A stretch of 64,000 nucleotides of DNA, from positions 179,293,745-179,357,744 of the forward strand of contig NC_135497.1 of assembly GCF_052857255.1 (NCBI RefSeq). The letters run 5' to 3'. Numbering within the stretch: the first letter of the stretch is position 1; each line of letters starts with the position of its first letter. The DNA comes from Amblyomma americanum. Taxonomy: Eukaryota > Arthropoda > Arachnida > Ixodida > Ixodidae. This document shows positions 6,612 through 60,708 of this stretch, in pieces. Both the position numbers and the translations under genes were made by a program. The notes under the pieces were generated by a model. It made no database searches and was not told the DNA's origin. It worked only from the letters and a program-made list of their open reading frames with translations.

Positions 6612-6836
6612 TAGACACCTTTAGCATACCGTGTTACCGGTACCGGAGTACCGGGAGGCCGCCCACCGCCAGTGCGCATGTAAAGATCGCCTTGAGAGTG
6701 CCAGATGGCGCCAGGTACCCGACAGCTACGTGCGCGCCTGCAGTTAGCGACCAATAAGAGCGTGCGAACTGGCGGTGGGCGCGCTCCCGGTATTCCGGTA
6801 ATGGTAACACGATACACGGTATGCTAAAGGTGTCTA
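6612..6836. mobile_element. MITE-like element with ~70-bp terminal inverted repeats
   Basis: The left end tagacacctttagcatacc and the right end ggtatgctaaaggtgtcta are exact inverse matches. The inverted repeat continues inward for about 67-74 bp (6612-6678 against 6763-6836) with a few mismatches and a short indel. The spacer is about 84 bp with no coding capacity. The size and long inverted repeats fit a non-autonomous DNA transposon. No long TSD is obvious, so I do not assign a superfamily. Confidence 0.75.
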
Positions 6837-9365: not shown

Positions 9366-10100
9366 TCAACATGGTTCACCCGCAAAGAGGTTGGCGATGT
9401 GTATACGCTGGATTGAAATGACATCCACGCTATGGAAGTCGAAATAATTTAAAATGGATGGTAATGAATGTCTAATTCTTTCGGTACCGTAGCCAGTACG
9501 CGAAAAGGGAACAAACCATGGTGGCTGGTACCGAAAAGAGTAGGTTTTTGTATTGTTTGTAAGGTGTGCTAAATTTAAAACTGTTTCTGATCTTCCTTGC
9601 ACTGCTTTTCTGTAAGCGCATAGGAGTTTGTGTGTGTAAATATTATTTGCTGTCATAACCTTGTGTTTTCGGAAAAGTGGTTGTGTATGTTCAAGCCTAG
9701 ACTTGTTTTCTATTGCACGGATTGCTTTCTTCTGAAGGAATAAAAGTTTGGTAATGTTACTGGCTGTGTGTGACGTTTTCGTCTCTGAAAAAATGGCCTT
9801 ACTGTCCCCTGTGGAAGTAGCGTTACTGATGGCCCAGCTGTTCGTCCGAATGTATAGTTCCCGCGACGAAAGCATTTCGAAGCGTAAAGTGTTGGGCAAG
9901 TTGGTCAGACATGCTTAACGGAATAATGGCGCAGATCAAGTGACAGGACAGCAGCAGGCGCTTGTGTGTGTTTGTGCTCTCCTGCTGTCCTGTCACTTGA
10001 TCTGCGCCATTATTCCAGAAAGCATTTCTACGTCCGAACTCCCTCGCTAAGCCGAGCAAACAGTTGACACCGCATTGCAATACAACACACAGACAGGCAC
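9366..10100 (-). pseudogene. CR1/jockey-like LINE reverse-transcriptase C-terminus, split by a hairpin insert
   Basis: The minus-strand frame from about 9870 down to 9366 resembles the C-terminal region of arthropod CR1/jockey-like LINE polymerases: a KLLFLQKKAIRAIEN-like start, TANNIYTHKLL, then PWFVPFSRTGYGTERIRHSLP before the stop. No RT catalytic core (YADD) is present. At 9879-10017 a 139-bp hairpin element has landed within or at the 5' side of the fragment. The upstream part (10029-10100) does not stay open, so the LINE was probably already decayed. Superfamily placement is from memory of motifs. Confidence 0.65.
9868..10028 (+). mobile_element. Short Penelope-derived hairpin element with TSD
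   Basis: The 139-bp insert (9879-10017) lies between exact 11-bp repeats gaaagcatttc (9868-9878 and 10018-10028). It starts with an 18-nt leader, then caagttggt (a variant of the tag CTAGTTGGT), then a cat..ttaa word. A perfect hairpin follows, with 35-bp arms 9920-9954 and 9982-10016 around a 27-nt loop. There is no coding capacity. The tag links it to the Penelope-like elements at 41348-42024 and 56910-60111. Confidence 0.85.
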
Positions 10101-14262: not shown

Positions 14263-14640
14263 CCCAAGAACAAAAAGAAAAAGAATTTTACGTGCCGAAT
14301 CTGCACCCGGGCTTTGAGGCACCCAGCCAGTATAGGGAAGGGCATTACATTAATTTCAACCACGTGGGATTCTTTCACTCAAGGCGGAAAGCTGGGCTAG
14401 TTGGTGTTTCATCATGAATTAAAAGACTAGCGCATATAACAAAGACACAGACCTGTCTACTTCTATGTCTGTGTCTTTGCTATATGCGCTAGTCTTTTAA
14501 TTCATGATTCTTTCACGTGCGCCGAAATCTCAATAAACACGCGTTTCTTCCACTCAACTTCTTAATTTCTGCCGCTTCAGCCGGGAATCGAACTCGGACT
14601 AGGCAGGAGAACTCCGTAGCCGCTAAGCCATCGCGTCCGG
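14263..14640 (-). mobile_element. Old Ruka-like SINE interrupted by a hairpin element
   Basis: On the minus strand a tRNA-like head starts near 14640 (A-box-like gcgatggcttagcgg, B-box-like agttcgattccc). The body follows with gcgcacgtgaaagaatc and, past the insert, gtggttgaaattaatgta and ggcacgtaaaattcttt. Removing 14379-14505 and one TSD copy restores a continuous SINE body. It is more diverged than the other copies and looks older. Confidence 0.7.
14368..14516 (+). mobile_element. Short Penelope-derived hairpin element with TSD
   Basis: The 127-bp insert (14379-14505) lies between exact 11-bp repeats gattctttcac (14368-14378 and 14506-14516). It has an 18-nt leader, CTAGTTGGT, then CATCATGAA. 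The hairpin arms at 14414-14452 and 14467-14505 are 39 nt each with one mismatch, and the loop is 14 nt. It has exactly the same length as the insert at 53752-53878, but its stem sequence is quite different. Confidence 0.88.
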
Positions 14641-16962: not shown

Positions 16963-17063
16963 ATAATAGAGAGAGACGGGCTAGTTGGTGACTATTAGTA
17001 GAATGCATCTTGAAACCACGCAAACCAATTGCATCTTGAAACCGCGGTTTCAAGATGTATTCT
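16963..17063 (+). mobile_element. Tagged hairpin element, rearranged, no clear TSD
   Basis: CTAGTTGGT at 16981-16989 is followed 16 nt later by CATCTTGAA, matching the tag order of the other hairpin inserts. The stem is unusual: a perfect 26-nt palindrome at 17032-17057, plus an upstream direct copy of the left arm (17000-17017) that can also pair with the right arm. Flanks show no exact TSD. It looks like an older or rearranged member of the family. Confidence 0.6.
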
Positions 17064-17221
17064 AAAAAACATACCCTCCTCCACCGAGCCTTTTGCTCCC
17101 GGTTCACCTTCCGCGCCAACCTCTGTTTCCCACAAGTGGTACGATTACTCAAGCCGCAGTACAATGCTTCACGGCGCTTCAAAATTATTCGCGAAGAATA
17201 ACAGATGTTGTCGAAAAGCAT

Positions 17222-18215: not shown

Positions 18216-19371
18216 TTAGTGGTTATTTATTAATAAAGTAACAATGGAAGGAAAAGATGTTTGCTAGCCGCGGCATCTGCCGTCGAAACGTGAAGCACCT
18301 GAGCTGCGGCTAGCGGGAATAAAAGGACAGGGAGAGGGAAAGAAAGGGCGGAGCAATAGTGAGAAAGGACAACAATTCCTTTTTTCCCGCGCACGGTTTC
18401 CGAATAGAACGCATTACCCGCCAACATTGTTGATTGCCCAGCGGTTTCATCATTCCTTTGCGCACTTGCCCATAAAACATGACTTCATTACTGCCTCTCC
18501 CTGCCGAATCATTCCGATGGAAACAGTTTTCCGTGTTGTTTATTTTGCAGTTTATTCTTCAGTGCTTGATATCTTGTTTGCATTTTTTTTCTTTCACTGC
18601 GTTAAAAGCTCACTCCTGCCTAAGGACTGGCTTCAAGGCTGGCAGTACTTGTAAAATAAATAAATACCGAAGGCCATCAAAGTAAAAAAAAAAGTCACAA
18701 TCATAGTGGCGATGCTGAGTGAGCCTGCCAATAAATAAACTTTAAATAAAGGGAATGAAAAACAACCCGACGACGTGAGTAATTCTTTTTTTTTCTTGTA
18801 CTCCAGTAACTACAGGCATTTTCACTGCTGCATCGCTTTTGTGTAGCGCAGACTTCCGAGGCGCGGTGTATTCTTAAATTCATATTTCATTTTCGCCTCC
18901 AACTGCAGTGCGATGTACGAAAGTGCGTCGTTTCCAACTCCCCCACTTTTCTCCGCGGAAAGCACGAGGCACTCCAAAAGTGGCATCAACGTGTCTAAAT
19001 ATATAGCATAAGAAGTGAACCCACCCACTGCCGTTGTCGCGGACCCCACTACTGCACTTGGCACATGACTTGGCGATGTCATGTGAGGTACAGGCGCGAC
19101 CAAAAGTAAACGGAGCACGCTATTTGCCTTTAAACATTTTTCACTCGCTTCCTAATTGAGACTGGCAACTGTGGTATGTGCAGGCTAGTAGTAGACGATA
19201 GTTCGCTTTCTCATGAACAAATAATGTTTCCTCATGTCTTCTAGGAAAGGCGAAATTGCAATTAGAACGGAATGAAGTGCTCTGTTTACTCATGTCCGCG
19301 CCTGTACATAGCACTCGCGACATGCAGAGGTGGTTGTCAATCGCAGGAGGCCTTCTAGGCTATAGCCCTGC
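18216..19371. other. No gene recognised; one LINE-like A-rich end
   Basis: Near 18650-18665, acttgtaaaataaataaata resembles the 3' terminus of a plus-strand LINE, but no coding part precedes it. Nothing else is recognised. Confidence 0.35.
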
Positions 19372-19413
19372 AGCAGCTAGAGGCTGCATGGCACCATGCA
19401 GCCTCTAGCTGCT
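19372..19413. repeat. Perfect 20-bp inverted repeat
   Basis: The arm agcagctagaggctgcatgg (19372-19391) is the exact inverse of 19394-19413, with a 2-nt spacer. No tag or TSD is visible, so its origin is unknown. Confidence 0.85.
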
Positions 19414-19791
19414 GACTTCGTTAACATGGAAATCAGCAGTACTTCACTCGCGACATGCTGCTTCATGCTCTACGCAGTTATCGCTGAAGATGTTATCGAT
19501 AATATAGGCCCTGTTAGTCAGCTAAAAATGATATCATTATCATCATCATCACGCAGTTTATGCAAAATGTACGAAAAATTCCCCTCCCACCATTTTTATT
19601 ACTCTTGTAGCGCGCCAACCAAAACTGTCCAATTCCAGCAAATCTCCTGATCTCACCCGCCTGTCCAGGTCCGCCTTTGTAAGTTGCTCCGCGGCCGCTT
19701 AGAGCCGACACTAAATTAACATACCATAAAGAAGGCGGCGGTCAGCTACTATGTCAGATGGGCCAACTCCTATCTTGGTTAGGGCACAGAA
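19414..19791. other. No recognisable feature
   Basis: Contains a short (atc)n run near 19535-19550; nothing else recognised. Confidence 0.45.
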
Positions 19792-26611: not shown

Positions 26612-26803
<192 letters not shown>

Positions 26804-29800: not shown

Positions 29801-31547
29801 AATGCACTCTACCAAATGCCCAGCGTTCTGAGACCGCGGTGGAAACCCCGGTCTATATGCGCCTTAAAAGGTCACCTCGCGCCGGAGCGAAACCGGGATG
29901 CCATTGAAGGCGGCCTACACGTAAGCTGAGGGAGCTTGAGGTTTCATGATGCGGAGGCTGCAAAGCAGAAACTGCGAGCAAGCGAGGGAAAAGCGCTCGA
30001 ACTACGCGCTGCGAGCGCAGCATACGCAGTTGCAGGCCGCACAACAAAAGAACAAAAGAGCTCTCACCGTGAGACGCGAGCGTCGTGTTGTCCAGCGTTG
30101 CTGCGCTCCGGGTGTGCGCAGCAGACGACGCAGGCGCTCGGGATCGAAGCAGACGACGGTTCACGACACGACCGACGCCGTAAAACGACAGCAACACGCC
30201 TCGTACGCCGCCGGGTTGGCTTCGCGCGCTTGCGCACGCAGTGAAAATCAGCGGCGGCGAGCGAGACGCGAAGGTCGACGTGTTATCTTTCTCGGTTGCC
30301 TCGTTCTATAAACGAGCAACGCCGCGGACCCCGCGTTACCGGCGCACAACACATTGCGTCACTGCCTGATTGCGAGCGATGACGACGACTTTAGCCAGGG
30401 TCTCTGCTATCGGTGCCTTCCTCCGCGTCTCGCCGCCACACCCTTCTCTCTGCCTTCCTCCTTCCGTTCTCCGACGCACATGTTACGCCCCCGCCGAACT
30501 TTCCAACTAAAGCCGGACGCGCTGTCAGGAAGCCCTTTTCATCATTGTTTTACTGCTAGACATATTTGAGTCCAACGGCAGTGCACGGCGCTTCCGCCTC
30601 GATCAAGGCATGGTGCTTGTTTGCCAGCTCAAAAAGGACGCTCGTCGGTTTCGGTGTACAATGGGGTCCCCACCGATTGACGGAAGCTTGAATAAATTCT
30701 TTTGAAGTATTTTACTTCAAGTAAACTACATGTTCTACCCCGCAAAATGGCACAAGAGTTAAGAGAGTTGGATGGGAAAGTTGAAACGTCAGCGAATGAA
30801 TTGTTATAGCTCTGTATATCTGATTTTGTACGTGTGGTGAAAAAAGTATAAGAACGACTTAGACAATTGTTACGATTCTACAAAAATAAGCGCCGCTCGT
30901 TATCTCGCTCATCTGAGTGTAAAGAATGAAATATCAGCATTTACAGGACACGCTTCATAAGCAGGCACGGCACAAACCGCAAGACCTGTCCAGGATAGGT
31001 AACAGAATGGCCCACTGTAAACAGATTCCCACATTCAATGCAGCTTTACGTGTCTATAACTCGACTGTTACACCCCAACTAAATTGAACTAATTCAGAAT
31101 AAGATATCCAGACATAGAGGGTTTCAGCAACTATTTCGCCAATTTATGCAATGATGTTTTAACAGACTATAGCGCCTTTTCTGAAGGGGTTTACCAAGTA
31201 CCATTACTTCAAAAATTGCTTGTTATGTGAGCGGTTTGTTCTTTTCTGGGATCTTAGAGGAAAATTCAAAATGTACTCCGTCAAGGTGACCACCCGCAGC
31301 AAGACCGTGGATAGTGAGGGAGCATGTGCTACACACAGCCACAACACAATGCAGTACTATCCTGCTAAGGTGCGGTGAGAATTATGCACACATAGCTACA
31401 AGCAGGCATCACATAAACAAACGAGCAGCAGTCACACAACTGCGGAATGTTTAGCGCTAACACATATACCGAGCTAAACAATTCGTGTGCATGCGCGCGC
31501 GCGCGCTTTTCTAATTTCTGCATTCCCATAGTCTCAAGTAACACTTG
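29801..31547. other. No gene recognised; CpG-rich block
   Basis: 29830-30350 is CpG-rich and open in several frames on both strands, which may reflect a promoter-like region or just base composition. At 31125-31145, aactatttcgccaa matches the outer sequence of the Penelope tag region at 42013-42025, but no arm is attached. Confidence 0.35.
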
Positions 31548-31632
31548 TTGCTGGGCTAGTTGGTGCATAATTCTATGTACAACGTTAGCGCAAAAATAAG
31601 ACACATTCACAAGAAAGGTGGACAAGACCCAT
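31548..31632 (+). mobile_element. Solo Penelope-element end (single arm)
   Basis: ctagttggtgcataattcta (from 31556) carries the tag CTAGTTGGT and then CATAATT, like the end of the large element at 57011. It is followed by ttagcgcaaaaataagacac. No inverted partner follows, so only one arm is present. Confidence 0.5.
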
Positions 31633-32509
31633 AGTCTATCTGAGCAGCTTAATGTTACAGCCAGCGGTTCTTAGCCGTTGAGCAAGGATATTTTATTTGT
31701 AGTGGAGGTACAAACTGTGAGCGCATCTGCGAGAATCAAGTGGCACGTGTGTTTTTCAAAATTGCCACTTCAGTTCACGCTCATATCGTACGCGTGTTGG
31801 ATACGACCACTGACAAAGAGCCGAAAAAACTTAAACTGTCCCACGGGAGCGATTGTTGTGGCGCGTACACCCGTAGGAAAAGATAATTGGCGTTTTGATA
31901 ATCGTGTCACACTCCAAACAGTAACTGAGCGCGCAGTATGCGCACTTTCATTGCCTTATGGATGCAGCCTTTTGCGAGAGTGGCAGTCACGATATAGGTA
32001 AATAACGATGTCAATCCCAAATTGAATTCGCGTTACCGGTAAACCGGGTTTCTGTCTTCCCTCAATTGATGCATGCTTTTAACAGTGTTTTTTGCGCGTA
32101 AATTTTTTTCACGGCAAGATCCATAATTCAAAAAAGTATTTTCCGAACTGTTGATCGAGTTGGTTTTGTACTGTGGTCCAACATCGCAACGGCGCATGGA
32201 CAGACAATATAAGAAAGGACGCAACACAGCGCTCTATTCTTTCCGTTGCAGTACTGTTTAACCTGGAAGTATGAAGCCATTCGCGACAGTGAGTGAAAGA
32301 TATTCGTCCAATAACGTCCTTACTACGGGCTCAGTCACTGCACGCTGCAAACAAACTGATCACTGTAGAATCCTATTATCCTCTCTGGCACTGCATGTCA
32401 TGTCCTCAATAGAAGCAGCCTTACATGGCCTACTTATCGGCATGGTATACTGCATATTTGCGATAGCTCTCGCTGCAACAATGAGATTGTTGCTGTATGT
32501 GTACGCCCA
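31633..32509. other. No recognisable feature
   Basis: Nothing supported. ggacgcaacacagcgctc near 32217-32234 resembles Penelope arm words but stands alone. Confidence 0.4.
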
Positions 32510-32632: not shown

Positions 32633-33065
32633 TGTTGTCCTTGCTGCATGAAAGCGGACGTAAAAAAAAACACCAGCTTATACAAGGCATGGCTTGTATA
32701 AACAGGTTTTTTTATATATATATTTTTAATGTTTAATGCAGGTTACACGCACAAGCGCTCAAAAAGACAAGGGAGACAGAATAAAGAGAGACACACGAAG
32801 CGCTTACTTGCAACTGATTTTATTTCATGCGAAAAACAATTTTGTACTCTTGGTAATCACCTGCTCATGCTTACAAGAACATTACCAACGAGTGATGGCT
32901 GACACATTTTATCGGGCCACCCACCCACATCTCTTTCCCGGAGAACAAAATTGACGGAGCGCTTACACAACCATCGCCCGCTCGTGCTATCTCTAAAGCC
33001 TCCAGAATCACACGCGTTATTTGACATTTGCTTTTAAAAAGTACTTCACATCTGTGAAAAACGGG

Positions 33066-33258
33066 ACGACAGCCTTGGTTTGGTTTATGGGGGTTTAACG
33101 TCCCAAAGCGACTCAGGCTATGAGAGACGCCGTAGTGAAGGGCTCCGGAAATTTCGACCATCTGGGGTTCTTTAACGTGCACTGACATCGCACAGTACAC
33201 GGGCCTCTAGAATTTCGCCTCCATCGAAATTCGACCGCCGCGGTGGAACGACAGCCTT
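33066..33258 (-). mobile_element. Ruka-type SINE inserted in one arm of Penelope element 1
   Basis: The body 33077-33247 (minus) has ggtggtcgaaattt-like, cagtgcacgttaaagaacccc and gggacgttaaacccccataa words. It is flanked by an 11-bp TSD, acgacagcctt, at 33066-33076 and 33248-33258. The tRNA-like head is missing (5' truncated at ccaccgcgg). The matching place in the right arm (about 34263-34285) is empty. Confidence 0.88.
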
Positions 33259-33286
33259 CCTTGTTTTCTTGCTTTTGCTCTTGCAC

Positions 33287-33532
33287 TTAGACAATGTGCC
33301 CCCCTCTTTTGTTTTCCACGTTGCAATTAAGCTCTCCTAACCTCTCATTTAGGCATCTTCCTCTCTGCCCTATATAAAATTTGCCACATGTCAAGGGCAC
33401 CTTGCACACAAAGCCTTCAGCGCATCTTACAAACGGCTTTTTGTGCCTGATTTTGCAAGTGGCCTCTTCTCCTTGGTTTACAAAAGTGCTTTTTCTGCAC
33501 AGGGCGCTCAACTTATTTGGGGCAGAAAACAA
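33287..33532 (-). pseudogene. GIY-YIG endonuclease domain of a Penelope-like element
   Basis: An 81-codon minus frame starts with VFSAPNKLSALCRK-like residues typical of the RT-endonuclease linker. It continues FVCKVPLTCGKFYIGQRGRC LNERL, the GIY-YIG core with the conserved Gly, Tyr, Gly and Arg residues visible. In Penelope elements this domain nicks the target DNA to prime reverse transcription. The C-terminal half is lost where the inverted arm begins (about 33290). Confidence 0.78.
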
Positions 33533-33626
33533 AACGTTTATGTTTACCGTGTTGTCAATTTTTCTCAGCTTGTGTGATAGCCTATGCTTATATGGAATGA
33601 CAGCGAAATTTCTTTTGTCAGTTGTC

Positions 33627-33998
33627 TTATCCTTTGTCTTTTCCTTTTTTATTTCTCACAAGTCCTTCCACCACTGACACGAGCAAGTGAAACGGATTAC
33701 CCGCGTCTTGCAACCTTTTTGACTGCAGAAACAAGCTCTCCTCCGTCGCATGTCGGCATGACTTTTTAAGACAGTTATGAAACCCTAAACAAGCTATGTT
33801 TAGTTTTATGAGCTTTGAGTGCGCAGAACTGAAAGGCAACGGCATTTTTCCATCCCTAGGATGATAAATAAAGCATGTGTGATCTTCTAAAAACTTTAAC
33901 TTGGTATCAAGAAAGCGTATGCTATTGCCTTCAGGCAGCTCACGTGTGACGACCAGAGGAGATAAGCAATCCGAAAAATGATCTAAAATACGCCCCAC
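33627..33998 (-). pseudogene. Penelope-like RT C-terminal fragment
   Basis: A 123-codon minus frame. Residues 18-36 read VTRELPEGNSIRFLDTKLK, followed by YHPRDGKMPLPFSSAHSKLIK, the conserved region just past the RT core of Penelope-like elements. It then has LHNCL-like and SLFLQSKRLQDAG segments before breaking. The RT catalytic palm is missing upstream. The next domain (33287-33532) follows in the same direction in another frame, indicating decay. Confidence 0.78.
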
Positions 33999-34606
33999 GC
34001 CCTCATCGAGTGTAGTACAAGTGATGTCTTAAAAAATTTTAAAAATCATCAACAAAACGAAAGACCTTTAAAACTCCTAGCCTTCAAGACGGGCAAAAAC
34101 CCTTCGGTCACACTCAGCTAAAAAGATATGCATAAAATTGGAGCAACACTGGAGAGGTTAGGAGAGCATAATTACAACGTTGAAAACAAAGAGTGGGGGG
34201 GGGGGGGGGGGGGGCGCATGAGTATCCATTACCTGGAGTGCAAGGGCAAAAGCAAGAAAAGCAAGAAAGGCTGTCGTCCCGTTTTGCACAGATGGTAAAT
34301 ACTTTTTAAAAGAGAATGTCAAATAACGCGAGTGATCCTGGAGGCTTTAGAGATAGCACGAGCGGACGATGGTTGCATAAGCGTTCCATCAATTTTGTTG
34401 TCCGGAAAAGAGATGTCTTATCTTACATCGAGCACGTGGGTTGCCCGATAAAATGTGTTAGTCATCACTCGTTGGTAATGGTCTTGTAAGCATGCGCAGG
34501 TGATTACCAAGAGAATAAATTGTTTTTAGCATGAAATAAAATCAGTTGCAATTAAGCGCTTTGTGTGTCTCTCCTATTCTGTCTTCCTTGTCTTTTTGAG
34601 CGCTTT

Positions 34607-53308: not shown

Positions 53309-53740
53309 TCACTGTAGCTTTGAAGCAGATTCCGGATATGCTCTTGTCTGTTCCGATTGCAGGGCTGGGTTCATGTCGAAAGTGGGCGAGTTCTCTTGGT
53401 CAGGCGGATCTTCTGCGGAGGGGTCGGAGAAGGCGAAGGAGTCTCGTACGTCGGATATTTCGTCGAAGAAAGCAATCGTCGTTCCTCTGTTAATGTGCCG
53501 GGATTCTTCGCTGAAGTTAGTCAGCAGTAGTCCGGCCTGGCCATTACGGAAATGTGCGATGCCTCTTGCGATGCTGATTCCTCGGTCTAGAAGCAACTGC
53601 ATGTTAACCTCGATGATGGCTTCAGCGTTAATGGCTTTAGTGGTGCCTACGGTCACGATAACGCTTGATCGGGGTGGGATGCTCACTTCTTCCTCCAGGA
53701 CACTCAGGGCAACGTGATTTTCCCGAGTTTTCATCGAAGC
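53309..53740 (-). pseudogene. Ty3/gypsy pol linker region
   Basis: A 141-codon minus frame (EEEVSIPPRSSVIVTVGT; then ISIARGIAHFRNGQAGLLLT; NRGTTIAFFDEI) corresponds to the protease-RT linker of arthropod gypsy pol. It is in phase with the protease once the inserted hairpin and one TSD copy are discounted. A further frameshift separates it from the RT. Confidence 0.7.
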
Positions 53741-53890
53741 GATGGCTTCGTTAACACGTTTTGGCGGACTAGTTGGTTAAGCATCTTGAACAAACAGCGC
53801 GAACAAAGACGAGCACAACGTGTCGTTCGCTTTCTTGTCTTTTGTGCTCGTCTTTGTTCGCGCTGTTTGTTCAAGACACGATGGCTTCGT
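53740..53890 (+). mobile_element. Short Penelope-derived hairpin element with TSD, inside gypsy pol
   Basis: The 127-bp insert (53752-53878) lies between exact 12-bp repeats cgatggcttcgt (53740-53751 and 53879-53890). It has a 17-nt leader with ttggcgga, then CTAGTTGGT at 53769-53777, then CATCTTGAA. Perfect hairpin arms of 35 bp lie at 53784-53818 and 53842-53876, with a 23-nt loop. It has the same length as the 14379-14505 copy. Confidence 0.9.
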
Positions 53891-54365
53891 CCGTCGAAAG
53901 CGTGATCAGCTTGGATCGCAGGTCGATGATCGCCTGATGCTCATTAAGGAAATCCATACCCAAGATCACTTCGCGGGAGCATTGCGGTAGCACAACAAAG
54001 GTCAAAGGATAGGTATGTCCCTTGACAGCCACTCGCGCTGTGCATCGTCCTGATGGCGTAATGAGGTGGCCCCCTGCGGTGCGAATTTGTGGGCCGTCCC
54101 AAGCCGTTGTGACTTTTCTCAGCTGCGCAGCGAATGTTCCATTCATCACCGCGTAATCGGCTCCTGTGTCGACTAGAGCGGTAACTTTCCGGCCGTCGAT
54201 AGTCACTTCTAAGTCGGAGGTCCTGGCTCTTGCATTGCATGTCGCTCTCGGCGTCGGGTCACGGCTTCGTCGCGTATGCGAGTCGCGGGTGGGGCGTGTG
54301 GTCGAAGCTCTTCTGGGTGGCGGCTTCGTTTTCAAGGCAGCCTGCGTCGTGGTCGGGGTTGTCAT
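53891..54365 (-). pseudogene. Ty3/gypsy aspartic protease
   Basis: The minus frame has ALVDTGADYAVMNG (the DTGA active site of retroviral-type aspartic proteases) at about residues 64-77, and the distal VILGMDFLNEHQAIIDL block at about 134-150. The enzyme would process the Gag-Pol polyprotein. The frame is cut by the hairpin element whose TSD is 53879-53890. Upstream it shares the phase of the zinc-knuckle frame, with a stop between them near 54498. Confidence 0.85.
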
Positions 54366-54607
54366 TTTGTGCGGCGTCGGTGCAGCGAGATTAGGTTCTT
54401 CATGCGGCGTCGCGGGTGCAGCGTCTTCATGGGGCGTGGTCGGTGGAGGATCTTCGGCGTTTCGCTCGTGAGCAACCTCACCTCCAGAGGTTGCTGCCTA
54501 GTTTCCCCTACGGGGGCTGGGAGACCTTCCTCGTACCGCGGCTGCGTAGCTGCGGCGTGGCGACGCAAAGCGCGAGGTTGACGGCGATGGTGAGCGCGAA
54601 AAGCGGT

Positions 54608-55669
54608 TCAGCGTGTACTCCTCTCGACGCAGGTACTCGTCGATTTCCTGCGGATGTTGTCCGAAGCGTGGTCGTGGGGCGTTAACGGCAAATCCTCGAA
54701 AACCGATACGTCGGTACGGGCAGTGACGAAGAATATGGCCGGCCTCACCGCAATGGAAGCACAACGGCCGGTTGTCGGAAGTGCTCCAGGCGTCGCATTT
54801 CCTGCTACTTGAGCGTCGGTCATAGGCTGGGCGGGCGGGGGCTGGGAGGCGGCTTTGTGGAACAAGTGGCTCATCTCGGGGAGGACGTAGGGGTTGTCGT
54901 GGGGCTGAGCAGTCCGTACTGCAGCGGCGTAGGTCATGAGCTGGGGTTCTGTGGCCGTCGGGGTGCCAAGCGCCTGTTGCACTTCTTCCCGCTCCACATC
55001 CATCAGATTCGCTGCTTGTGGCTGCGGGGAGGATGACAGTAATCGGCGTAGCTCCTCTCGGATGATTTCGCGGATAACTTCCCGCAAGCTGTCGCTGGTG
55101 GTGGCCGTCGTGCCCGAAAGGATTGCACAGGCAGAGGAAAGGCGATTGTACTGCCGAGCTCGGACGTCGAGGGTCTTCTCGATCGTGCAGGCTTCTTGCA
55201 TGGATTCGTCGACTGTTTTTGGCGGCTGGCGGACGAGGCTGCAAAAGAGTTTTACTTTTACGCCGCGCATTAAAAACTGAACTTTCTTTTCCTCGGTCAT
55301 CTCCGGGTCGGCGCGGCGAAATAGGCGCTTCATCTCTTCGACGTAACCGCGGACGCGCTCATTCGGAAGCTGGATCCTGGACTCGAAGAGTCGTTCGGCT
55401 CTTTCTTTCCTCACGACACTGGTGAATACCTTCAATAGTTCTCTCTTGAATAGCTCCCATGTTGTAAGGGACGACTCGTAGTTTTCGTACCACGTGCGTG
55501 CGGAGCCCTGCAATGAAAAAAACACGTCTCCAATTTTCGCCGCATCATCCCACTTGTTGAATGACGCCACGCGCTCAAATTGATCCAACCATTCTCCAGA
55601 GTCTTCGCCTAGGGATCCATTGAAAGTTGTCGGCACCCGCGGTTGCTGCAGTATGATGGGTATCGACAT
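54608..55669 (-). pseudogene. gag: Ty3/gypsy gag
   Basis: A 353-codon frame. The N-terminal part contains the retrotransposon gag capsid region (GEWLDQFERVASFNKWDD; GSARTWYENYESSLTTWELF; then RVRGYVEEMKRLFRRADPEM at about residues 100-130). The last third (about residues 290-353) has drifted into the wrong frame. The CCHC zinc knuckle (CFHCGEAGHILRHC, about 54716-54757) is in a different frame within 54498-55244. One frameshift near 54830 therefore separates capsid from nucleocapsid. The start Met at 55669 fits the family start (MSIP-like). Confidence 0.82.
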
Positions 55670-55874
55670 CTTCGGCGAGGTTGCGGTGCCCGTAGCAGCG
55701 TCTTTTGCTGTCTGGTGCGGTCCGGCAGGGTCCCGAACTCAGGCTCCTCTTTCTGGAGACGTCAGCTGGCTAGGTGAGCTGCTCGCTAATCCTCGGGGGC
55801 GAAGCGCTGACGGCTGGCTTCACGACTTGAAGGGGCGTCCGGAACATGGAAGGCTACCCCGCACCTTTACCAGA

Positions 55875-56905: not shown

Positions 56906-57633
56906 TGAAAGTAATATTGCTTAGTTAAGTTTTTAACTATATTTCTGCTAGAGCCCTTAATTACTGATAGCCGTGTCGCCCACCGCAATAAAGCAAGACT
57001 TTCTGACTGGCTAGTTGGTACATAATCTTTTTCGAAAGACGGTACGCTAAATAGACGTTCACAGGAAAACGGTAGAGACGACAGGACATAAGAGCAACTT
57101 TCAACTTTAATAACCTGCAAATGAAGCCAGGCGCGCTTATATAACCGCCGATATACAGAGACGGGCTGCATGAGAGCGTGAAGGAAACCAACAAACAGGA
57201 AGAGCAATAGGGCATGTCCAAGTGAGTCGGTGAACATGTCAATACGTGCCGAGGTTTGACAAAAACATGACAAAAAGAGCATTCGCATGAGTTGACAAAA
57301 ATGCTTAACGACATGAAAATTCGGAGGTGCATGAAATATAACAGTGAAAAGAAACAAGTACATAGCAACATGAAAATATGAATAACATAATGAAAAAACA
57401 AAACAGAGGAACATTAAATGTGGTGATGAAAAAAAAGAGATGGGAATAAAAACTGTTTAAAGAGTGACAAGACGCGATAAAAAGAACATTACAATTTCTA
57501 AAAGCAAACTAAAATAAAGAGCAGCTACTGGGTTTTATGAGGCTAGATGTAGCCATCTAAAAAGGACAGTTCATTCTTGGAAAGGTGAGCAGAAGGCGTG
57601 CTAACGCACTTGCGCACTTGTCTTTTTTTTAGG

Positions 57634-57733
57634 NNNNNNNNNNNNNNNNNNNNNNNNNNNNNNNNNNNNNNNNNNNNNNNNNNNNNNNNNNNNNNNNNNN
57701 NNNNNNNNNNNNNNNNNNNNNNNNNNNNNNNNN
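57634..57733. other. Assembly gap (100 N) flanked by a 91-bp exact repeat
   Basis: 57543-57633 and 57734-57824 are identical across the 100-N run. The opposite arm of the Penelope element has this block once, without a gap. The true sequence therefore most likely has one copy and no missing DNA. Confidence 0.95.
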
Positions 57734-57876
57734 CTAGATGTAGCCATCTAAAAAGGACAGTTCATTCTTGGAAAGGTGAGCAGAAGGCGTGCTAACGCAC
57801 TTGCGCACTTGTCTTTTTTTTAGGTCAATAAAAAAGGTCTTAAGTACTCCTCCCTCGGTCTTGTTTTGAGCCTTAG

Positions 57877-58431
57877 CTAGAAACTTAGTTTCATTAGATT
57901 TAGGGTGGCAGTTTTCGAAAGTGTATGCAGCGGGAGGTTTCCTCCAGATTTGCTCTTCAGGGTCATACTGTGCTTACGGGCGCGCTCACTGAAACATTTT
58001 CCTGCTTGCCCCACATGCACTTTGCCGCACGTCGAGTGGATCTCATGTATACACAACATTGGCAGTGAATTGTATGTACGCGGTTTGATGCTTGATATTA
58101 CGGGCGTTTTTAACGCGCTTTTTGGTCACCGTCGGACATAAATTGGTCGGTTAGCTGGGAGCCGAAAAAACCAGCTGAACCCCGTGTATAGACGCAACCT
58201 TCTTCAAATTGTGTGAAAGACCGTGCAGGTAAAGCATTACCTGCACAGGTTTCTGTTCTGTCTCGCGCTTATCGTGGTCCAATTTCTTAGTTTTTTTTTT
58301 TTTGCAAAAGGCTCTCAGATGTGCTGGTGTCCAAATGGGCTGGGTAACCTGCCGCTAAAATTTGCTCAATCTGGCACTCGAAGCTTTCACCTATCTTGTG
58401 GGTGCCTGATTTTTCTAATGCATATTTCATG
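57877..58431 (-). pseudogene. Penelope-like RT end plus GIY-YIG endonuclease
   Basis: Read on the minus strand: FECQIEQILAAGYPAHLDT, then HGLSHNLKKVASIHGVQLVF followed by SAPS and a stop near 58165. The endonuclease piece has YMRSTRRAA-like damage in one frame, and in the other IHSTCGKVHVGQAGKCFSER (GIY-YIG core with Gly-Gln-x-Gly and Arg). It stops where the left arm's inner edge lies. Frames are broken at least twice. Confidence 0.7.
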
Positions 58432-58978
58432 CAAAGAGTTAGCTTTCTTTTGTAGCCGTATGGCTGCGCTTGAGTGGATGGAAATGAGTAATTACTCCCT
58501 TATTACAAATCTACTCCACCTTGGGGGATTCCCCTGAACATTTGACCAATACTGTTCCCACTTCGAGTTATTGATCAATTCACTCTTGCCCTACCATAAG
58601 CTTGCCGTCCCGGTTAGCTCAGTTGGTAGAGCGACTGCTCCGGTGAAGCGGTGGTCCTGGGTTCGAACACCGGACCAAGACAAATTTTTCTTTAACTACG
58701 AAGTTTCTGGGAAAGCTGTATAGCTTTCTTTTGTAGCCGTATGGCTGCGCTTGAGTGGATGGAAATGAGTAATTACTCCCTTATTACAAATCTACTCCAC
58801 CTTGGGGGATTCCCCTGAACATTTGACCAACACTGTTCCCACTTCGAGTTATTGATCAATTCGCTCTCGCCCTACCATAAGCTTGCCGTCCCGGTTAGCG
58901 AAGTTGGTAGAGCGACTGCTCCGGTGAAGCGCTTGGGTGGATGTCAATGAGTAATTACTTCCTTATTACAAAGAGTTA
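58432..58978 (+). mobile_element. Dimeric tRNA-derived SINE (fifth family) with TSD
   Basis: The 527-bp insert (58442-58968) is flanked by the 10-bp repeat caaagagtta (58432-58441 and 58969-58978). Order on the plus strand: body part (58442-58606), tRNA-like head (58607-58679; ggttagctcagttggtagag as A box, gggttcgaacacc as B box), full body (to 58886), partial head (58887-58932), then a short body part. The bodies share tgtagccgtatggctgcgct and gagtaattactcccttatta. The Penelope reading frame resumes across the insert. Confidence 0.8.
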
Positions 58979-59315
58979 CTATGCCACACTTTAGCAGCTT
59001 AGAGTGGGCACTATCATTACTTATCAGACTTCTTCGAGTGTGGCTGATAAGACCAACAGACATGCGTATTTGAAGAAAAATAAGCTGTGGGTCAATAAAC
59101 TGAAGTCCATCATGATTTGCACACTCATGAGGGAGCTTAAGACCCCTAGATAAAGAACCAAAAGCCGCCAGAGTTTGTGCGACAAGTATATCTGGGTCAC
59201 AGTGTGTAAGTATATTTAAAAGGATAATATAGTCATAGTTGATGACTAGCTTTTCTAGCAAATCTGACGGAAACCTTCCGTTACACTGCAGCAGTTGCCA
59301 AAACTGCCACCCCAA
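58944..59315 (-). pseudogene. Penelope-like RT C-terminal fragment
   Basis: The minus frame reads FPSDLLEKLVINYDYIILLN, then SLSRGLKLPHECANHDGLQF, and NDSAHSKLLKCGIVTLCNKE, the post-palm region of Penelope RTs (LPxxxxxxFLDxxL, SAHSKLxKxGI). Only the end of the RT is present. The reading is then cut by the SINE cluster and resumes on the other side at 58431 downward. It overlaps the inner edge of the right arm. Confidence 0.7.
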
Positions 59316-60111
59316 ATTTCATGAAACTAAGTTTCTAGCTAAGGCTCAAGACAAGACCGAGAGAGGAGTACTTCAGCCCTTTTTATTGACCTAAAAAAAA
59401 AAGACAAGTGTGTTAGCACGCCTTCTGCTCACCTTTCCAAGAATGAACTGTCTTTTTTAGATGGCTACATCTAGCTTCACAAAACCCAGTAGCTGATCCT
59501 TACTTTAGTTTGCTTTTAGAAATTTTAATGCCCCTTTTATCTGGCCTTGCCACCCTTTAAACAGTTTTTATTTTCATCTCTCTTTTTTTTTTTCATCGTC
59601 ACCTTTAATGTTCCTCTGTTTTGTTTTTTCATAATGTTATGCATATTTCCATGTTGCTATGTACTTGTTTCTTTTCACTGTTATATTTCATGCACCTCTG
59701 AATTTTCATGTTGTTAAGCATTTTTGTCAACTCATGCGAATGCTCTTTTTACCATTTTTTTGTCAAACCTCGGCACGTGTTGACATGTTCACCGACTCAC
59801 TTAGACATGCCCTATTGCTCTTCCTGTTTGTTGGTTTCCTTCACGCTCTCATGCAGCCCGTCTCTGTATATCGGCGGTTATATAAGCGCGCCTGGCTTCA
59901 TTTGCAGGTTATTAAAGTTGAAAGTTGCTCTTATGTCCTGTCGTCTCTACCGTTTTCCTGTGAACGTCTATTTAGCGTACCGTCTTTCGAAAAAGATTAT
60001 GTACCAACTAGCCAGTCAGAAAGTCTTGCTTTATTACGGTGGGCGACACGGCTATCAGTAATTAAGGGCCCTAGCAGTAATATAGTTAAAAAGTTAACTA
60101 TACAATATTAC

Positions 60112-60708
60112 TTAACCAGCCTTCTAGTTAGCACGTCTTAGCTGTATTCTGATGTACTACACCGCTAACAATGCTGTGCCGAAAAAGCGCTCTTATAACT
60201 GAAAAAGCTTATTTTCTTTTAATTGCGAAAATTCTTAGGTGAAACACCTTGTGTATCCTCTATTCAACGTGTGAGAATTTGTACGGCTGTTTAAAAAAAA
60301 AATGTGTTTAGGACTTCCTCGGGCGGGGTTTCTCTTCTTTTTCCCGAACAAGACAAGTGGCAACGAAAAGGACTTCACTGGTGCTGAGGCTTTTACTGTG
60401 CACGCACAGAAGCTTCGACAAAGTAAGGGTTATAGTGGCAAAGTCCATAAAAAATAGCCGGTATCTACCTGGAATAAGCCTCCCAATCATGCTTGTTCAG
60501 GGAATAGTTTTTTTTATTGTAAGCGCACGTCCCATCTGATGCAAATGGCGATGATGTTTTTTCCACGCGTACACGCGCTTTCTTACGCATTCTCTGATAT
60601 CCCGTCAAAATGCCCCTCGTTGTTCCCACAGCGGAACACGGTTCCTTCCTCTTGCCCTTCTCGCACAGCTGTCCCACGTGAAAACAGTTGTAGCGCTTTT
60701 GCGAGACC
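60112..60708. other. No recognisable feature
   Basis: Nothing recognised. Confidence 0.45.

Follow-up and report, generated by a model that had tools for sequence, protein, structure and literature searches.

In LINE-1 twin priming, reportedly described by Ostertag and Kazazian in 2001, two target ends are said to prime one RNA and to leave an inverted segment. For Penelope-like elements (PLEs), the closest in vitro system is that of a lizard element, Anolis Poseidon (PAc), in which each of the two target strands is cleaved and extended and reverse transcription uses two adjacent internal start sites in the start of the ORF (PMC11167929). In that work, start choice is the same for both strands, the starts are not homologous to the target, and the stretch between them is the optional 30–40 bp tail (PMC11167929). 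Extension of both strands from either start by a PLE enzyme has thus already been reported, and the same 2024 study describes further steps of PLE integration as 'yet to be validated experimentally' (PMC11167929). In the rotifer Adineta vaga, Penelope carries a 31-bp tail on one of two inverted pLTRs and has target site duplications (TSDs) of 8–10 bp; head-to-head copies were attributed to self-priming, and antisense RNA was proposed (PMC3846280). Additionally, animal retrozymes consist of 150–300 bp tandem units and are proposed users of PLE machinery (PMC7761336).

The window analyzed here, a stretch of 64,000 nucleotides from the tick Amblyomma americanum, contains hairpin inserts that are short insertions of PLEs of this species. 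The tick inserts differ from LINE-1 twin priming in having two fixed starts and an inverted segment that covers nearly all of the other, which produces a hairpin; the poly(A) 3' end and target-complementary priming of LINE-1 are absent. Similar to PAc, the inserts appear to reflect two adjacent starts near the ORF start, a tail between them and extension of both strands. The PAc reactions differ in that they took place in vitro and, as far as the sections describing them go, gave no joined products, began at ORF nt 111–118 and included a hammerhead (PMC11167929). Likenesses to Adineta vaga are the inverted pLTRs reaching the ORF start, the optional one-sided tail and the palindrome at some pLTR 5' ends, but the rotifer inverted copies enclose long elements, whereas the tick inserts hold 5' UTR and ORF start only and measure 127–139 bp in the window (PMC3846280). 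A literature search at the level of titles and abstract openings found no description of such hairpin inserts.

Hairpin inserts in the window

An earlier, sequence-only reading of the window had described three hairpin inserts. All three (c1, c2 and c3) are present, their coordinates are correct, and they are flanked by exact TSDs of 11, 11 and 12 bp, respectively. The features of these inserts and of other members in the window are as follows, with families A, B and C defined further below.

9868–9878, no strand, left TSD of c1, GAAAGCATTTC
9879–10017, minus strand, c1 insert, 139 bp, with tail and start codon region at 9879–9919
9920–9957, arm 1 of c1, followed by the loop at 9958–9978 and arm 2 at 9979–10016
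10018–10028, no strand, right TSD of c1
14368–14378, no strand, left TSD of c2, GATTCTTTCAC
14379–14505, minus strand, c2 insert, family B, 127 bp, with tail at 14379–14413
14414–14454, arm 1 of c2, followed by the loop at 14455–14464 and arm 2 at 14465–14505
14506–14516, no strand, right TSD of c2
16963–17064 (ends approximate), minus strand, c4, a decayed fourth hairpin member, family C, best flanking repeat with 9/11 matches
31535–31627, minus strand, sibling (s31) with a tail and without a hairpin, 10-bp TSD CCCATAGTCT at 31525–31534 and 31628–31637
32753–34605, minus strand, decayed PLE copy, inverted ends 32753–33076 and 34267–34605 (86%), ORF pieces 33290–33655 and 33630–34028
53740–53751, no strand, left TSD of c3, CGATGGCTTCGT
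53752–53878, c3 insert, 127 bp
53752–53783, minus strand, PLE tail of c3, PLE ORF start MLNQLVRQNVL, tag at 53769–53777
53784–53818, minus strand, arm 1 of c3, family A 5' UTR, putative cDNA with tail
53819–53841, plus strand, loop of c3, sense-like, part of arm 2
53842–53876, plus strand, arm 2 of c3, putative cDNA without tail, 100% match to arm 1
53879–53890, no strand, right TSD of c3
56909–60113, minus strand, longer PLE copy, inverted ends 56909–57633 and 59390–60113 (93%), tag near both ends

Arm-to-arm matches extend over 38 bp at 97% in c1, 41 bp at 95% in c2 (42 bp at 98% by a second inverted-repeat finder) and 35 bp at 100% in c3. By a search similar to that used for the TSDs, a direct repeat scoring at least 11 was found at 1/150 random window positions, with a right-hand range of 140 nt for random positions; for the inserts the range was 260 nt, with every TSD falling within 140. 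The stems had been said to differ strongly between copies. Within the window this holds, as cross-insert arms align at 63% with gaps and their alignment scores were reached by 49, 88 and 25 of 500 shuffles.

When the flanks of c3 are joined without the insert, a frame remains open for 219 aa across the site, beside an ORF with a retrotransposon gag domain, as expected of a clean insertion. The empty-site join was clear for c3, while those of c1, c2 and 31535–31627 provided little information. The frame interrupted by c3 is the downstream frame of a minus-strand retrotransposon at 53871–55738, which has its gag domain (PF03732) in 54608–55738. A permissive Rfam scan of c3 returned 28 matches, all below gathering scores and mostly microRNA-like, as expected of any long hairpin, and the RNA folds of four single cDNAs were no better than those of shuffles.

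No TSD was found around the decayed PLE copy at 32753–34605, and none that was convincing around the longer copy at 56909–60113. Inside the longer copy, a 100-N gap (57634–57733) lies between two identical 91-bp stretches (57543–57633 and 57734–57824) and is an unmerged contig overlap. The window also contains a perfect 37-bp palindrome with a 4-nt loop that abuts a (TA)n tract (26612–26689), a perfect 21-bp palindrome with a 2-nt loop (19371–19414) and a MITE-like stretch of ∼225 bp with perfect 23-bp terminal inverted repeats (6612–6836).

Tag, tail and PLE identity

The tag CTAGTTGGT reads ACCAACTAG on the other strand, in frame after an ATG, and is the start of a PLE ORF. An in-frame ATG is found 2–3 codons before the Q at 5/7 independent window sites, yielding the ORF starts MSDQLAQ, MKHQLAQ, MLNQLVR, MHQLAQQ and MYQLASQ; at the sites 16981 and 32156 there is no ATG 2–3 codons before the Q. 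The word CATC(A/T)TGAA, which the earlier reading had listed as part of the shared plan, contains the start codon. Genome copy L075, whose start reads KMLNQLARQNVLTQLIS and opens the longer frame KMLNQLARQNVLTQLISCSSG, carries both the tag as ORF start and reverse transcriptase (RT) frames. An RT ORF is tied to the same ends in L074, whose frame matches RVT_1 at 7.6e-9 and has 122 homologues; among the 120 listed, those with a species or product name are from ticks, and two are named Amblyomma americanum. Six of the eight long tick homologues begin M-(1–2 residues)-Q-x-A (MPYQLAQ, MNQLACI, MLNQQAQ, MNYQHAQ, MNHQHAQ and MNQPAQM), so that Q-x-A is kept in six and QLA is exact in two, while P0013 has QHAQ further inside and P0056 has a different start.

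The PLE pieces of the window match L074 at 41–43%, or one another. Searches with the decayed pieces gave no PLE match in Pfam, NCBIfam or PHROGs, only unrelated weak matches in the PDB and nothing in a protein homologue search, and a structure model had a mean pLDDT of 39. PLE identity is thus reached via the intact genome copies and not the decayed window pieces, with no confirmation from a solved structure. The PLE ORFs searched had no Pfam match to a GIY-YIG endonuclease; a CGGQYVGQTGRCINKRLTEH stretch in L073–L075, spotted by eye, is one that we take to be GIY-YIG-like. The hammerhead is a motif reported in PLEs, here not regarded as obligatory for every member; Rfam detected none in the window, in s31 or in four loci, a search that a minimal motif could escape. 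The pLTR arrangement of PLEs is present, as inverted ends in the window and as tandem and inverted arrays in the genome.

Leader and tag together are the known PLE 'tail', and the stem is the 5' UTR of the PLE family. Four inserts of the window have clean TSDs (c1, c2, c3 and 31535–31627), and their tails end at ORF nt 34, 34, 33 and 34, respectively; the inserts end in ORF codons, without poly(A). On its own, the tag is no more frequent in the window than expected (22 matches with at most 1 mismatch vs 27 expected), and the tag pattern had 0 matches in viral contigs.

Stem families, arms and ends

A pattern of tag plus word had 1349 exact matches in the genome, compared to 0 for the reversed pattern. 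We examined 75 rows, comprising 72 loci (L001–L072), which are the first listed of the 1349 matches and all lie on contig C1 up to ∼199.6 Mb, and c2, c3 and c4 of the window. The rows fall mainly into three families (A, B and C). Counted from the tag, c3 agrees with a family A copy and c2 with a family B copy at 50/50 nt each, and c4 with a family C copy at 45/50 nt. Thus, stem differences separate families and not individual copies. The proposal that each stem is private fails for two of the three inserts, c2 and c3, whose stems are the 5' UTRs of repeated families, and the 5' UTR sequences of families A and B also occur in copies without a hairpin. Ordinary copying from a master element had been discounted as well; copying from several PLE lineages accounts for the three differing stems.

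In a first pass, inverted repeats of at least 20 bp within 400 nt were found in 40/75 rows, among which L009 and L010 are one insertion and L044, L045 and L060 belong to the weak or other-family rows. End mapping dropped seven rows (L010, L022, L021, L050, L062, L064 and L070) as duplicates, long or two-tailed copies, or arrays. The remaining 68 comprise 35 in which the family sequence recurs as an inverted second copy, 26 family members without one (four of them, L044, L045, L058 and L060, assigned by search word alone) and 7 from other families, where L025 and L042 also look inverted.

Two of the dropped loci are head-to-head tandem arrays. L070 (C1:199576500–199581500) has at least 11 forward and then 19 reverse exact tags, mostly every 123 bp, and L064 (C1:186928300–186932500) has 3 forward and then 5 reverse tags, every 242 bp. 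The units of both start at a CAGCGCC box and reach approximately ORF nt 57 or 176; candidate origins are circular RNA, template jumping and DNA amplification. Both arrays resemble animal retrozymes in their short tandem units but, unlike these, hold PLE 5' UTR and ORF start (PMC7761336). The hammerhead per unit of an animal retrozyme was not detected, with no Rfam gathering-score match in L070, L064, L001 or L014.

A TSD of at least 7 adjoins arm 2 in 26/40 hairpin rows, and under this rule the other 14 have none. Lengths range from 8 to 14 and are mostly 11–12 (8 in 1 row, 9 in 1, 10 in 3, 11 in 9, 12 in 8, 13 in 3 and 14 in 1), while in a control that swapped in the flank of another hairpin 0/500 reached 9. 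TSD starts share a mean of 1.84 nt with the template in register vs 0.40 in the control, and at least 3 nt in 5/19 vs 6/179, an overlap that is favored by the caller's choice of the longest TSD; PAc starts, in contrast, are described as lacking target homology (PMC11167929). Target microhomology is too weak to be the sole rule for the second start.

Of the 23 family A hairpins, 16 have a second copy that begins no more than 3 nt from the ATG; the other starts lie 9–10 nt from the tag in 3 and 23–25 nt in 3, and one (L009) includes the full tail. The far end, 75–81 nt from the tag, falls at a box in 18/23 for the tail-less copy and 10/23 for the tail-bearing copy, where ends are the stop of an ungapped walk, so that indels shorten some rows. 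The box at this far end is GGCGCT (sense GTCAGCGCC), which we take to resemble the arthropod initiator TCAG. Four copies (L008, L011, L020 and L048) continue beyond the box, so the element itself does not end there. Three short, hairpin-free copies of family A stop at 71, 73 and 78 (L032, L024 and L069, respectively), and among the zero-loop hairpins 5/7 turn at 77 in the family A box, L014 turns at the family B box and L026 at 63. Three rows carry two tails (L009, L050 and L062); because the tag search sees only hairpins with a tail and is blind to those without, the rule of one tail per hairpin is partly built in.

Arm identity within inserts had been proposed to exceed that between inserts, and this is confirmed for families A and B. 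The 23 family A hairpins have 8/1080 arm mismatches within inserts vs 477/23683 between inserts, and the 6 family B hairpins have 3/239 vs 60/1160. At a C/T site, 20/20 arm pairs carry the same base, compared to 0.58 expected if drawn apart; at another variable position, close to the turn, only 5/8 pairs agree (0.62 expected). The better match within inserts indicates that a single RNA, or near-identical RNAs, gave rise to both arms; two RNAs from one source copy could also fit.

Formation of the hairpins

With a probability of roughly 0.75, each hairpin is the 5' end of a PLE RNA inserted once, as two cDNAs made from both cut strands and joined head to head. This conclusion draws on sequence and on a genome sample from part of one contig (C1). 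Both target strands are cut ∼11–12 nt apart, as the TSDs show, and each freed 3' end would prime reverse transcription on one RNA. The insert ends show that one cDNA begins at ORF nt 33–34 and carries tail and tag, and that the other, which lacks the tail, begins at the start codon or directly beside it. Both would run upstream to the palindromic AGCGCY box, which in family A lies ∼62 nt before the ATG, where ends pile up, and which is the probable 5' end of the RNA; if the enzyme runs off its template, that 5' end would be the A of TCAGCGCC. Joining of the cDNA ends at the box, often through GCGC, would then leave a head-to-head inverted repeat between the TSDs.

A more detailed version, which we put forward tentatively and at somewhat below even odds, has both strands priming one RNA from two fixed starts, with the box acting as a zipper that joins the cDNA ends. 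The leading RT, from the start codon, would run off the RNA 5' end and the trailing, tailed one would halt some way behind; this would account for the greater length usually seen in the tail-less cDNA. The palindromic zipper would replace ordinary second-strand synthesis at the 5' junction. The same reaction would also yield larger products, namely the long head-to-head copies and the tandem arrays arranged head to head. Long inverted copies also occur outside the window (L021/L022), and in L015, L022 and L040 the tail is joined, as judged by eye, to apparent sense PLE coding sequence; these three and the long inverted copies look like such larger products.

Self-priming, in which the first cDNA (or an antisense RNA) folds back and copies arm 2 from arm 1, appears unlikely, although it has been inferred for Adineta vaga from palindromes at head-to-head junctions (PMC3846280) and corresponds to the snap-back synthesis suggested by the sequence-only reading. 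While it would account for arms that match better within inserts than across them, the loop should then always extend the tail-bearing arm. Instead, the tail-less arm is longer in 19/32 inserts of all families, equal in 8 and shorter in 5 (two-sided sign test, p = 0.0066), the 32 being the 35 rows with an inverted copy minus L009 (two tails), L066 and L067 (long). In family A alone it is longer in 14, equal in 6 and shorter in 3 (p = 0.013). The five inserts with a longer tail-bearing side (L007, L027, L028, L068 and c4) do fit self-priming. The loops of c1–c3 are sense-like: their plus strand contains 27 T and 1 A, a bias shared with the sense strand, and they align better as sense to reference tracts (4/5 for c1, 5/5 for c3 and 3/5 for c2). 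Additionally, nothing in snap-back synthesis would make it end at the start codon. The loop thus belongs mostly to the tail-less arm, and this bias argues, for the tick inserts, against self-priming, the explanation given for Adineta vaga (PMC3846280).

We regard as quite improbable that the RNA template was already an inverted repeat whose middle the enzyme skips, or that hairpins were cut down from the long inverted copies that do exist in the window and elsewhere (L021/L022). The hairpins have their own TSDs of the usual length and are therefore insertions, not deletions, and skipping does not predict second copies that, for most of family A, start at the ATG and end at the box. A DNA transposon of the foldback or MITE-like kind with homogenized arms can be given almost no credence despite TSDs of nearly constant length, as the ends are not inverted copies (an ORF-start tail on one is usually absent from the other, and c1–c3 have the tail on one end only and lack terminal inverted repeats at both ends) and the same end occurs on copies without a hairpin and on long copies reading into the RT ORF.

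Under the preferred reading of two joined cDNAs, the tick inserts add a record in the genome of both cDNAs from individual events, a case against self-priming and a likely joint, the palindromic 5' box. Each short insert seems to preserve the pair of cDNAs made in a single event and to show in its sequence where they start, end and meet. As a single genome offers 1349 tag matches, the question of how PLEs integrate is open to counting.
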